Source of the DNA: Actinocatenispora thailandica
Lineage (GTDB): Bacteria; Actinomycetota; Actinomycetes; Mycobacteriales; Micromonosporaceae
Assembly: GCF_016865425.1 (NCBI RefSeq)
Contig: NZ_AP023355.1
Coordinates: 6,880,198-6,944,197 of the forward strand
Direction of reading: 5' to 3'
DNA: 64,000 nt
Part shown: positions 25,801-32,144 of the stretch, in pieces
Layout of the letters: every line of letters starts with the position of its first letter
How positions within the stretch are numbered: position 1 is the stretch's first letter
Position numbers and translations under genes: made by a program
The notes under the pieces: generated by a model
What the model saw: the letters and a program-made list of their open reading frames with translations, nothing else
Databases searched by the model: none
What the model was told of the DNA's origin: nothing

Positions 25801-25818
25801 TGAACGATCGTTAGGGTA
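25801..25818. promoter_or_regulatory. Candidate TetR-type operator upstream of the carboxyltransferase gene
   Basis: TGAACGATCGTTAGGGTA, whose core AACGATCGTT is a 10-bp perfect palindrome. Read on the minus strand the site follows a possible -10 hexamer (TACCCT). The same 18 bases recur at 32127-32144 upstream of the biotin carboxylase gene. I infer joint control by a repressor, the TetR protein at 34978-35553 being a candidate. Confidence 0.65.
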
Positions 25819-25998
25819 GCTCAGTCGGCGTCCCGGCACCATCCGTACCGCCGGACGGGAGCGCGACAGGACCTCCGCACGACGACGGGCCCCCGCACCG
25901 TGGCGAGGACCCGTCGAGGCAGTGCCGTGAGTGACATCAGCGGCATGTGCAGTTATGTGAGACGGGGTCGGTTGGGGGCTACCCCGGTACGTTCGGGA

Positions 25999-26026
25999 CC
26001 CGGCCCCGACCTGGGTCGGGGCCGGG
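25999..26026 (-). terminator. Hairpin terminator of the chaplin-like gene
   Basis: A 12-bp perfect stem (CCCGGCCCCGAC / GTCGGGGCCGGG) with a 4-base loop starts 10 bases past the stop of the chaplin-like gene on the minus strand. It separates this gene from the downstream carboxylase operon. Confidence 0.75.
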
Positions 26027-26036
26027 CTTCAGAGAA

Positions 26037-27245
26037 TCAGTGCTGGGCGGCGACCGCGGTCGAGCTGCCGTTGACGCCCACGCCGACGCCGAGCACGCCG
26101 ACGCCGTTGCCGGCCACGTTCACCGGAACCTGGATCGGCGCGTGCACCTGGGTGCCGTTCGCGATCCCGGAGTTACCGGCGGAGACCATGTCGGTGCCGT
26201 GCGACGCGGCCATCGCGGGCAGCGTGTTCGCGGTCTTGGCCGGCTTCGCGGCCTCGGCGCCCTCGGTGGACGACGCCATCGAGTGGTAGCCGCCGTGGTG
26301 GCCGTCCTCGCTGTGCGACACCGCGGCCGCGCCGCAGTTGCCGGAGATGCCGATCCCGGCACCCAGCACGCCCACGCCGTTGCCGCACACGTTCACCGGA
26401 ACCTGGATCGGCGCGTTCAGCTGGGTGCCGTTCAGGATGCCCTTGTTGGCGGCCGACACCATGTCGGTGCTCTCCTGCGCCGACTCGGTACGGTGCGCGA
26501 CCGAGGTGCAGTCGCCGGACACGCCCGCGCCCAGGCCGAGCACGCCCACGCCGTTGCCGCAGACGTTGACCGGAACCTGGATCGGCGCGTAGATCTGGGT
26601 GCCGTTCAGGATCCCGGCGTTGCCCACCGAGCCCATGTTGGTGCTCTCCGGCGACGCGTACGCCGACTCCTGCGCGGCGGCGACGCTGGTGCAGTCGCCG
26701 GAGACGCCGATCCCGGCGCCCAGCACGCCCACGCCGTTGCCGCACACGTTCAGCGGCACCTGGATCGGCACGTTCACCTGGGTGCCGTTGCCGATGCCCA
26801 TGTTGCCGGCCGACACCATGTCGGTGCTCTCCTGCGCCGACTCGGCGCGGTGCGCCACCGCGGTGCTGGAGCCGTTCACGCCGATGCCGACGCCGGCCAC
26901 GCCGACCCCGTTACCGGCCACGTTCGCCGGCACCTGGACCGGGATGTCGGCCTGCGTGCCGTTCCCGATGCCCTTGTTGTCGGCGGAAACCAGGTTGGTG
27001 CTCTCGGCGCGGTCCGCGACCGAGGTGCTGCTGCCGTTCACGCCCAGCCCGACGCCGGCGACGCCGACCCCGTTGCCGGCCACGTTCGCGGGAACCTGCA
27101 CGGGGGCGACCACCTGGGTGCCGTTCGCGATCCCGGAGTTACCGGCGGAGACGGCGTTGCTGGCGTGGGCCATGCTGGCGCCGGCCAGCAGGAAACCCGC
27201 GGAGAGGATCCCGACCCGGGCGGTACGACGAACCCATGTCTTCAT
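26037..27245 (-). CDS. Chaplin-like secreted protein with six repeats
   Basis: 402 residues. A signal peptide (MKTWVRRTARVGILSAGFLL, cleavage likely after AHA) precedes six units of the form SAGNxGIxNGTQxxAPIQVPVNVCGNGVGVLG-GIGVSGDC, similar to the chaplin (DUF320) domain with its GN..V.VPVNVCGN core. Units 3-5 contain the chaplin Cys pair; units 1, 2 and 6 have Ala/Ser in place of both cysteines. A His/Gly/Ala-rich insert lies between units 5 and 6. Chaplins coat aerial hyphae as amyloid-like films. There is no LPXTG sorting signal or C-terminal helix, so it would be released. Start ATG 27245 is chosen to give the signal peptide directly. Confidence 0.8.
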   Translation of the reverse strand: MKTWVRRTARVGILSAGFLLAGASMAHASNAVSAGNSGIANGTQVVAPVQVPANVAGNGVGVAGVGLGVNGSSTSVADRAESTNLVSADNKGIGNGTQADIPVQVPANVAGNGVGVAGVGIGVNGSSTAVAHRAESAQESTDMVSAGNMGIGNGTQVNVPIQVPLNVCGNGVGVLGAGIGVSGDCTSVAAAQESAYASPESTNMGSVGNAGILNGTQIYAPIQVPVNVCGNGVGVLGLGAGVSGDCTSVAHRTESAQESTDMVSAANKGILNGTQLNAPIQVPVNVCGNGVGVLGAGIGISGNCGAAAVSHSEDGHHGGYHSMASSTEGAEAAKPAKTANTLPAMAASHGTDMVSAGNSGIANGTQVHAPIQVPVNVAGNGVGVLGVGVGVNGSSTAVAAQH

Positions 27246-29822: not shown

Positions 29823-30737
29823 TCAGGCGGGGATGGTGCGGTAGCGGGGGCCGGCCCGCAGCACGCCGGACGGCAGCTCGCGGCCGACGATGTCCTGCGC
29901 CATCGCGGCGACCTCGACCAGCGCGTCCAGGTCGATGCCGGTCTCGATGCCCATGTCGGTCAGCATGTGGACGACCTCCTCGGTCGCCACGTTGCCGGTG
30001 GCGCCCGGCGCGTACGGGCAGCCGCCGAGGCCACCGACGCTCGCGTCGAACTCGGTGACGCCCAGTTCCATCGCGGTCAGGATGTTCGCCAGGCCGGTGC
30101 CCCTGGTGTTGTGGAAGTGCAGCAGCATCGGGATGTCGGGCTGCCGGTCCCGGACCGCGGTGACCAGGTCGGTGACCCGGCGCGGCGTGGCCATCCCGGT
30201 GGTGTCGCCGAACGCGACCCGATCCGCGCCGTCGGCGACCACCCTGTCCACGATGGACGCGACCCGGGCCGGCGCGACGTCCCCCTCGTACGGGCAGCCG
30301 AAGCTGGTCGCGACGATCACCTCGACCCGGGCGTTCTCGTTGTGCAGCAACGTGATCAGCTCGGCGATGTCGGCGAGCGACTCGTCGGTGGACCGGTTCA
30401 CGTTCTTCCGGTTGTGGGTGTCGCTGGCCGACACGACGACCTCGATGTCGGTGAACCCGGCGGAAAGCGCGCGCCGCGCGCCGCGCGAGTTCGGTACCAG
30501 TGCCGAGTAGCGGACCGCCGGGTCGTGCTTGCTGCCCGACCACACCTCGTCCGCGTCGGCCATCTGCGGGATCGCCCTGGGATGCACGAAGCTGACCGCC
30601 TCGATCCGGCGGATCCCGGTGCGCGGCAACGCATTTAGCAGCCGGATCTTGGCTTCGGTCGGTACCGGGTCCTCGTTCTGCAGCCCGTCTCGCGGGCCGA
30701 CCTCCCGGATCGACACCCGCGCCGGCAGCTCGGTCAT
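29823..30737 (-). CDS. Hydroxymethylglutaryl-CoA lyase
   Basis: 304-residue HMGL-like TIM barrel. VSIREVGPRDGLQNE contains the metal/substrate residues (Arg-Asp). HFHNTRGTG and the glycine-rich Cys loop GGLGGCPYAPGATGN, with the catalytic Cys, identify HMG-CoA lyase rather than homocitrate synthase. It cleaves HMG-CoA to acetoacetate and acetyl-CoA, the last step of leucine breakdown. AAGGAGGAAG precedes ATG 30737. It follows the biotin carboxylase gene after 29 bases, so both form one operon. Confidence 0.9.
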   Translation of the reverse strand: MTELPARVSIREVGPRDGLQNEDPVPTEAKIRLLNALPRTGIRRIEAVSFVHPRAIPQMADADEVWSGSKHDPAVRYSALVPNSRGARRALSAGFTDIEVVVSASDTHNRKNVNRSTDESLADIAELITLLHNENARVEVIVATSFGCPYEGDVAPARVASIVDRVVADGADRVAFGDTTGMATPRRVTDLVTAVRDRQPDIPMLLHFHNTRGTGLANILTAMELGVTEFDASVGGLGGCPYAPGATGNVATEEVVHMLTDMGIETGIDLDALVEVAAMAQDIVGRELPSGVLRAGPRYRTIPA

Positions 30738-30766
30738 CCCGCTTCCTCCTTCGTGGACCGTCGTGG

Positions 30767-32097
30767 TCAGCTGCGCATCCTGCCGATGATGCCGGTGTCG
30801 TACTCCCCGGCGACGAACTCGGCGTTGTCCAGCAGTTCGGCGAAGAACGGCAGGTTGTTCTTGGGCCCCTCGATCCGGAACCCGGCGACCGCCTCGCGGG
30901 CGCGCGCGAGCACCGCGTCGCGGTCCGGGCCGGACACGATCAGCTTGGCCAGCAGCGAGTCGTACGCCGGGGTCACGGTGGTGCCGGCGGCATAGCCGGA
31001 ATCGACGCGTACCCCCTCGCCGGTCGGCTCGGTCCAGGTGCGCACCGGCCCCGGGCCGGGCAGGAACCGCTTCGGGTCCTCCGCGTTGACCCGAAGTTCC
31101 AGCGCGTGCCCGGTGATCGCCAGCGCGGCCGGGTCGAAGCCGGGGTCCTCGCCGGACGCGATCCGCAGCTGCGCCTCGACCAGGTCGATGCCCAGCGTCG
31201 CCTCGGTGATCGGGTGCTCGACCTGCAGCCGGGTGTTCATCTCCAGGAAGAAGAAGTCGCCGGAGTCGGGGTCCAGCAGGCATTCGACGGTACCCGCGTT
31301 GCGGTAGCCGACGGTCTCACCGGCCAGCTGCGCGGCGCCCAGCAGCCGGGCCCGCAGCTCCGGCGACACGGCCGGGGACGGCGCCTCCTCGGCGACCTTC
31401 TGGTTGCGCCGCTGCACCGAGCACTCGCGCTCGCCGAGCGCGACGACCCGGCCGTCGGCCAGGCCGAGGATCTGCACCTCGATGTGCCGCACCCGGGGAA
31501 GTACCGCTCGATCAGCACGCTGCCGTCGCCGAACATCCGCTCCGCGAACGCGGTGATCTTCGCGTACTGGCCGCGCAGCTCGGTCTCGTCGGCCGCGGCG
31601 GCCATGCCCATCCCGCCGCCGCCCGCCGCCGCCTTCACCATCACCGGGTAGCCGATCGCGGTCGCGGCGTCGACCGCCGCGTCCACCCCGGCCAGCGGGG
31701 CGGTGGTACCGGGCGAGACGGGGACGCCGGCCGCGGACATCAGGTTCCGCGCGTTGATCTTGTCGCCCATCTGCTGGATCGCGTCGGCGGTCGGGCCGAC
31801 CCAGATCAGCCCGGCGTCCTCGACGGCGCGGGCGAAGCCGGCGTTCTCGGACAGGAAGCCGTACCCGGGGTGGATCGCGGCGGCGTTCGTCTTCCGCGCG
31901 GCGTCGAGGACCGCCTCGACGTTGCGGTACGCCTGCGGCGCGCCGATGTCGACGGACTCGTCGGCGTCGGCCACGAAGGGCAGGTCGGCGTCCAGCTCGG
32001 AGTGCACCGCAATGGTGCGCACCCCGAGCCGGCGCGCGGTGCGGATGATCCGCCGCGCGATCTCCCCGCGGTTGGCGATCAGCAGCGACTCGATCAC
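30767..32097 (-). pseudogene. Biotin carboxylase subunit of an acyl-CoA carboxylase, frameshifted, no BCCP domain
   Basis: The N-terminal frame starts at 32097 (MIESLLIANRGEIARRIIRT) and carries the ATP-grasp motif KAAAGGGGMGM, up to IERYFPG near 31498. The protein then continues in another frame as VRHIEVQILG, ECSVQRRNQK and FLEMNTRLQVEHPITE, to GRMRS at 30767. One missing G in the G-run 31495-31498 (plus strand) explains this; adding it restores a 443-residue protein. This is biotin carboxylase only: the usual C-terminal biotinyl domain with a MKM motif is absent. It could be a true pseudogene or an assembly error. Operon with HMG-CoA lyase. Confidence 0.85.
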
Positions 32098-32126
32098 GTG
32101 CCCTCCTGCCGTTCCCGGTATCGGCT

Positions 32127-32144
32127 TGAACGATCGTTAGGGTA
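32127..32144. promoter_or_regulatory. Second copy of the candidate TetR-type operator
   Basis: TGAACGATCGTTAGGGTA, identical over 18 bases to 25801-25818 and about 30 bases upstream of the biotin carboxylase start. The AACGATCGTT core is palindromic. Placed the same way relative to the gene as the first copy. Confidence 0.65.

Follow-up and report, generated by a model that had tools for sequence, protein, structure and literature searches.

Two identical palindromic elements as predicted operators of a BkaR/AccR-type TetR repressor at acyl-CoA catabolic operons of Actinocatenispora thailandica

Introduction

Two TetR-type repressors of actinobacteria are the closest described relatives of the system analysed here. 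BkaR (Rv2506/MSMEG_4718) represses the accD1-accA1-fadE19 operon as well as fadA4 via a 16-bp palindrome (PMC3920632), and AccR of Streptomyces avermitilis represses accD1A1-hmgL-fadE4 via the 16-nt palindrome GTTAA-N6-TTAAC (PMC10933834), as given in the accessible parts of these reports. The named BkaR homologues PccD/BkdR of Saccharopolyspora, Mycolicibacterium, and Streptomyces are described, in the available portions of the sources, as acting on genes for acyl-CoA carboxylases or acyl-CoA supply, and the loss of AccR and PccD raised product yields (PMC11596240, PMC10933834). We analysed 64,000 nt of the genome of Actinocatenispora thailandica (NZ_AP023355.1, positions 6,880,198 to 6,944,197; “the window”), in which an identical 18-bp element precedes two operons. 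One operon encodes the carboxyltransferase (CT) subunit of an acyl-CoA carboxylase and an acyl-CoA dehydrogenase (ACAD), the other a biotin carboxylase (BC) and a hydroxymethylglutaryl-CoA (HMG-CoA) lyase. Comparative sequence analysis makes it very probable that both elements are operators of a BkaR/AccR-type TetR repressor, which is encoded in the same window (Table 1).

The A. thailandica system shares with the BkaR system an orthologous TetR, genes for an acyl-CoA carboxylase, a dehydrogenase, and a fadA4-type thiolase, and a palindrome at promoters. The palindromes differ, i.e. the BkaR box is given as GTTA(N)T(N4)A(N)TAAC in the available text (PMC3920632), whereas the unit found here is CTnAACGnnCGTTnAG. 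AccR is likewise described as a TetR repressor over carboxylase, HMG-CoA lyase, and dehydrogenase genes. The site of PccD from Saccharopolyspora erythraea is unlike either box, and the PccD targets are described as propionyl-CoA carboxylase (PCC) in the parts of the reports at hand (PMC10933834, PMC11596240).

Results

Two exact copies of the element in the window

The 18-mer TGAACGATCGTTAGGGTA has two exact copies in the window, one in each of the two promoters. Allowing up to three mismatches revealed no further copy in the window, and 100 shuffled sequences contained none, which confirms the claim of the initial annotation that the 18-mer occurs at these two places and nowhere else in the window. 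Both operons are on the minus strand, and on the gene strand each copy reads TACCCT-AACGATCGTT-CA. The core AACGATCGTT shows perfect dyad symmetry, and at both copies a −10-like TAnnnT hexamer directly adjoins the palindrome on its 5′ side, in agreement with the −10 hexamers that had been suspected in both promoters. The start codons of the CT gene (GTG at 25763) and the BC gene (GTG at 32097) begin 40 and 32 positions past the last base of the core, respectively. Both copies of the 18-mer are thus real, but as a unit it is off-centre, and the conserved unit in relatives is approximately CTnAACGnnCGTTnAG. The original list of sites also lacked a degenerate third site upstream of copy 2, which contains the one-mismatch core GACGATCGTT. 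This site may equally be the remnant of a terminator, because two congeners (L143 and L146) have a perfect CCGCAC/GTGCGG inverted repeat around AACGATC at this place.

In the single-contig genome of 7.43 Mb, two of the three copies of the core are those of the window, and the third is at 3,673,021. This third copy lies inside an open frame on the minus strand (L001, 686–2032) for a putative permease-like protein (sugar-type ABC). Even when three mismatches were allowed, the 19-base gene-strand form TACCCTAACGATCGTTCAG had no match in this genome other than the two window sites. The presumed 5′ leader of the CT gene contains, just 3′ of copy 1 at 25786–25799, a hairpin-like sequence, CTACGT-GT-ACGTAG; two congeners (L024 and L026) carry a similar inverted repeat there, one of them with a different loop.

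Conservation of the element across the Micromonosporaceae

For the family, we used 80 named loci, out of 220 found around TetR orthologues, which represent Micromonosporaceae genera and a few unclassified metagenome-assembled genomes, and counted sites within 150 bp upstream of a gene. The pattern AACGNNCGTT precedes the CT gene as an exact match in 57 of 59 testable loci, and in all 59 when one mismatch is allowed. The background values from 2,993 random stretches are 0 and 78, respectively. For the other genes, the values are 30/80 (TetR), 16/77 (BC), 3/67 (HMG-CoA lyase), and 2/32 (ACAD). The TetR orthologue is located in the same cluster as the motif and the CT gene across the family. Taken together with the family-wide conservation at the CT promoter, this favours the shared TetR-type operator that the initial annotation had proposed.

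The sequence GAACGATCGTTA occurs in 28 copies in 19 of 41 genomes (A. thailandica and 40 relatives), and 21 of the copies are located directly before CT, BC, or TetR-BC. The 13-mer CCTAACGATCGTT has 95 copies in 82 of 121 family genomes, compared with three copies of the reversed control pattern. As many as 77 copies, in 69 genomes, are no more than 15 kb away from a TetR orthologue; of the remaining copies, one is at 16 kb, two are distant, 11 reside on a different contig, and four belong to genomes without a strong TetR match. A motif that is frequent at unrelated genes had been named beforehand as an argument against the shared operator; such a distribution was not observed in the A. thailandica genome and the family, and the idea was not refuted.

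Chance occurrence was rejected in view of the uniqueness of the element in the window, the presence of only three cores in the genome, and the difference between 57/59 and the background. A wide regulon of unrelated genes was rejected in view of the few genome copies and the location of CCTAACGATCGTT mostly near the TetR gene. The notion that BC gains its own site when it is apart from TetR fits three of six loci with a gap >300 bp, two of these being congeners, and is not claimed.

A fadA4-type thiolase and other genomic sites

A scan of the A. thailandica genome with two mismatches allowed yielded three extra sites (2,302,941; 4,096,560; 7,369,466). The first, AACGGTCGTT with an exact AACGNNCGTT, is situated 84 bp upstream of an acetyl-CoA acetyltransferase gene, the product of which passes TIGR01930 and is likely to be the counterpart of the BkaR target FadA4. 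Of 60 family matches to this thiolase, the loci of 30 (A. thailandica and 29 relatives) were read. With up to one mismatch, AACGNNCGTT is present within 150 bp of the fadA4-type gene in 25 of the 30 loci, compared with a background of 37/1,507, and an exact AACGNNCGTT precedes it in five of 30, including A. thailandica. The pattern AACNNNCGTTNAG yields 25/30 against 0/1,507, yet it was chosen after inspection of the data, and the one-mismatch count is the fairer value. Based on the presence of the site, the fadA4-type thiolase is proposed to belong to the regulon. The site at 7,369,466 (AACGTGCGTT, L157) lies upstream of a second, large carboxylase-like frame of 1854 aa with a biotin carboxylase at its beginning; the distance to the matched part of this frame is about 110 bp. 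Two of the three congeners retain the site, but both are 97% identical to A. thailandica in this region, which limits what can be read from the retention.

The TetR regulator is orthologous to BkaR/AccR

The best structures for the window TetR, by sequence as well as by fold, are those of Mycobacterium tuberculosis BkaR (Rv2506/Fad35R; 4g12, 6yj2), with 46% identity to 6yj2 and a TM value of 0.88 (model pLDDT 91.8). When a BkaR/AccR-type TetR of another family (L172), whose gene adjoins a CT gene and a GTTA box, was used as the query, the window TetR was the clear best match in its own genome (E value 1.7e-55; the next match had 3.2e-10). At least 25 stretches of this genome match a TetR-type model (25 scored of 160 candidates). 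With the window TetR as the query, 157 of 296 genomes of the class have a match at an E value of 1e-20 or better, and 115 of 121 Micromonosporaceae genomes have a strong match. The nearest named TetR loci are those of A. comari (96% identity) and A. rupis (86%). In a midpoint-rooted tree of 63 TetR sequences, the Micromonosporaceae and the outside sequences form two separate clades (support 0.92 and 1.0). Judged by orthology, the TetR is the local form of the characterised repressor BkaR/AccR, and the proposal of the initial annotation that it is a candidate regulator gains weight from the fact that BkaR and AccR control equivalent genes. SACE_7040, from which the NCBIfam name is derived, is described as a morphogenesis repressor; the word “leucine” does not occur in the accessible part of that text.

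The predicted operator as a variant of the GTTA-N8-TAAC box

For comparison, we analysed 31 stretches from 29 genomes outside of the family, i.e. the 27 non-family loci among the best 30 and four longer stretches. GTTA-N8-TAAC is present beside the orthologous TetR gene in 30 of the 31 stretches, with a total of 58 boxes, mostly between TetR and a CT gene, and the reversed control has no match in 140 kb. In contrast, none of 216 family promoter stretches contains GTTA-N8-TAAC; instead, AACGNNCGTT occupies the same register. When the boxes are aligned on their dyad, the majority sequence is GTTA[AG][TC]GA[TC]C[AG][TC]TAAC outside of the family and CTnAACGnnCGTTnAG inside. The two boxes have compatible inner decamers, and they differ in the outermost three bases on either side. 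At CT promoters, a merger with the −10 element makes CCT the predominant left arm. The Micromonosporaceae operator thus appears to derive from the BkaR/AccR box, from which it differs in the outer arms but not in the dyad, the inner decamer being compatible.

The two groups of TetR proteins also differ at residue 50: all 81 family sequences have H there, and all 26 others have R; in the tree set, the same holds for 32/32 and 31/31 sequences, respectively. The BkaR/AccR-type proteins of other families thus carry R where the window TetR has H, AccR's own sequence being outside of this comparison. By TetR topology, we take residue 50 to be the end of the recognition helix, which spans residues 45–48 in the model. 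We infer that this residue may have caused the operator change; other positions also differ between the two groups. One actinobacterium of another family with a 2.3-Mb genome (L195), which is not included in the count of 26, has AACGATCGTT between TetR and CT (G362, 2060–2069) and a TetR with R at position 50. The inner core by itself thus does not depend on H at this position, and the site of L195 is possibly an intermediate operator.

The predicted operator is the new part of the system, while the repressor type was already known in actinobacteria. In the open-licence literature, AACGATCGTT yielded, judged by title, nothing about this regulator, and we found no Micromonosporaceae operator in the literature on BkaR, AccR, and PccD, most of the subscription papers being out of reach.

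Genes of the two operons and their surroundings

The features of the locus are listed in Table 1. The ACAD is 72–75% identical to the ACAD near a BkaR/AccR-type TetR in three of the four longer stretches from other families. The break of the BC frame is a one-base difference, which may be a mutation or a sequencing error; three genomes of the genus are open there. The HMG-CoA lyase copy of a congener passes NF004283 (358 vs 246 bits).

In actinobacteria, an alpha subunit with a fused biotin carrier is the usual form of the carboxylase. The cluster BC of the Micromonosporaceae has about 450 aa, without a fused carrier and with none on the operon strand nearby, and the BC of the window differs from the BkaR system in this respect. 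In the 80 family loci, a simple search for a carrier motif found nothing on the operon strand and two matches on the minus strand. Between the two operons, a chaplin-type protein with four ChpA-C repeats is encoded at 26037–27281 (minus strand), and a luciferase-like monooxygenase domain (PF00296) at 28745–29785 (plus strand).

Table 1. Coordinates of the predicted sites and of the genes of the locus in the window
Feature	Position	Strand	Remarks
Operator copy 1 (predicted)	25801–25818; core 25803–25812; −10-like TACCCT 25813–25818	−	Exact match; promoter of the CT/ACAD operon
Operator copy 2 (predicted)	32127–32144; core 32129–32138; −10-like TACCCT 32139–32144	−	Exact match; promoter of the BC/HMG-CoA lyase operon
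Degenerate third site	32327–32338; one-mismatch core 32328–32337		Upstream of copy 2
ACAD, second gene of the CT operon	23023–24171	−	Pfam ACAD domains
Acyl-CoA carboxylase, CT subunit	24228–25763	−	TIGR01117 418 bits, below its cut-off; PDB relatives PCC/AccD1/methylcrotonyl-CoA carboxylase (MCC) beta
HMG-CoA lyase, start inferred	about 29823–30743	−	PF00682
BC, frame broken near 31495	30767–32097	−	Open reading frames; frame open in three congeners
AfsR-like HTH/NB-ARC/TPR regulator	32463–34859	−	Between the TetR and BC genes in the window
TetR-family regulator, BkaR/AccR orthologue, proposed binder	34978–35553	−	NF050111 234.5 bits, just under the cut-off of 250; PDB 4g12/6yj2 best by sequence and fold

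Discussion

A mechanism can be proposed in which a TetR dimer would bind the palindrome of about 16 bp, CTnAACGnnCGTTnAG, that abuts the TAnnnT −10 element. The bound dimer would obstruct RNA polymerase at the two promoters, which would result in joint repression of CT-ACAD and BC-HMG-CoA lyase; the fadA4-type thiolase, which has its site at 2,302,941, would be in the same regulon. During the degradation of leucine or isovalerate, an acyl-CoA of the pathway (isovaleryl-, methylcrotonyl-, or another short-chain acyl-CoA) might release TetR. A precedent for such a ligand is AibR, a TetR-type protein that, according to the PDB titles (5k7z/5k7h), was solved with isovaleryl-CoA, with an identity of only 24–25%.

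Several observations weigh against control of both operons by this TetR. Of the 71 TetR-BC units with close spacing, no more than 34 have an exact AACGNNCGTT before either gene, and therefore TetR-BC in much of the family may be controlled via weaker sites or otherwise. Seven of the 28 GAACGATCGTTA copies are near none of the CT, BC, and TetR genes. The exact 13-mer is missing from 39 of 121 family genomes; eight of these were inspected, and four have AACGnnCGTT variants in the cluster. In the other four, which are divergent (L236–L239), AACGNNCGTT is absent from the 13–15 kb around TetR, which is near an HMG-CoA lyase gene in three of the four. In addition, no site was seen upstream of the TetR gene (35553) in the A. 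thailandica genome; therefore, autoregulation is not indicated here. BkaR, in contrast, is divergent from accD1 and autoregulated in M. smegmatis, according to the accessible part of the report (PMC3920632).

Two further points against concern the pathway, i.e. the absence of a biotin carrier domain (PF00364) from the window, with a BC that has no attached carrier, and the low identities of CT (38–44%, and 38–41% for the four longer stretches) and BC (45–58%) to their BkaR/AccR-linked counterparts of other families. Because of these features, the pathway may not be identical to the BkaR/AccR-linked one. A leucine set of the Liu type comprises isovaleryl-CoA dehydrogenase, MCC alpha (with carrier) and beta, a hydratase, and HMG-CoA lyase. 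From this set, the HMG-CoA lyase of the congener passes its model, while ACAD and the carboxylase are assigned at the family level only. The HMG-CoA lyase model supports the label “leucine-type” of the initial annotation, as do the parallels with BkaR and AccR, but the label is tentative as regards the substrate of the carboxylase.

Among the alternatives, the one that retains some standing, albeit an improbable one, is that the operator is real and is read by another TetR protein, e.g. one similar to SAV7471 of S. avermitilis with the box GAGAACSWWCGTTCTC. The centres are similar, the box as reported in the available text admits AACGATCGTT (PMC10933834), and the many TetR-type matches in the genome would offer other readers. 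However, the conserved flanks here are CTn...nAG and not GAG...CTC, and throughout the family the motif is associated with the gene for the BkaR/AccR orthologue; BkaR and AccR themselves control equivalent genes.

It is even less probable that the elements are not repressor sites but an extended core-promoter or activator sequence, composed of the −10 element and a conserved initial transcribed region. The hexamer flush with the core at CT promoters is indeed mostly TAnnnT (first T in 50, A in 58, and last T in 55 of 66 sites). Against this stands the perfect dyad symmetry of the core, which moreover occurs before TetR genes with other flanks (CTGAACGACCGTTAAG and similar), the first T being present in 0 of 30 cases. 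Centres other than AT are also found at both the TetR and the CT promoters of the same genomes (L131 and L139).

A recent promoter duplication or chance, which would make the identity of the 18-mer uninformative about shared control, is hardly credible: the identity is exact over 18 bases in one genome, but the bases outside of the two copies differ from each other, three genomes of the genus keep the core at the same place at both the CT and BC promoters, and different genera retain the CT site both with and without a site at BC.

Operators of the BkaR/AccR-type TetR thus remain the preferred explanation of both elements. For its evolution, we regard the following scenario as having about an even chance. 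On the branch to the Micromonosporaceae, the operator code of the repressor would have switched: the outer arms GTT...AAC would have given way to CTn...nAG, with retention of the dyad and of a compatible inner decamer, and residue 50 would have become fixed for its R/H difference along with this switch. All parts of the regulon (CT, TetR/BC, and fadA4) would have been rewritten, and the carboxylase genes replaced or strongly diverged, while the regulator and the dehydrogenase were kept.

The Micromonosporaceae are known for antibiotic producers, in which the acyl-CoA supply feeds polyketide synthesis. If true, the prediction would link the leucine/short-chain acyl-CoA catabolism of this family to an operator and a regulator. 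It would also be a natural case in which a transcription factor and its whole regulon have changed their DNA code together, with one candidate residue.

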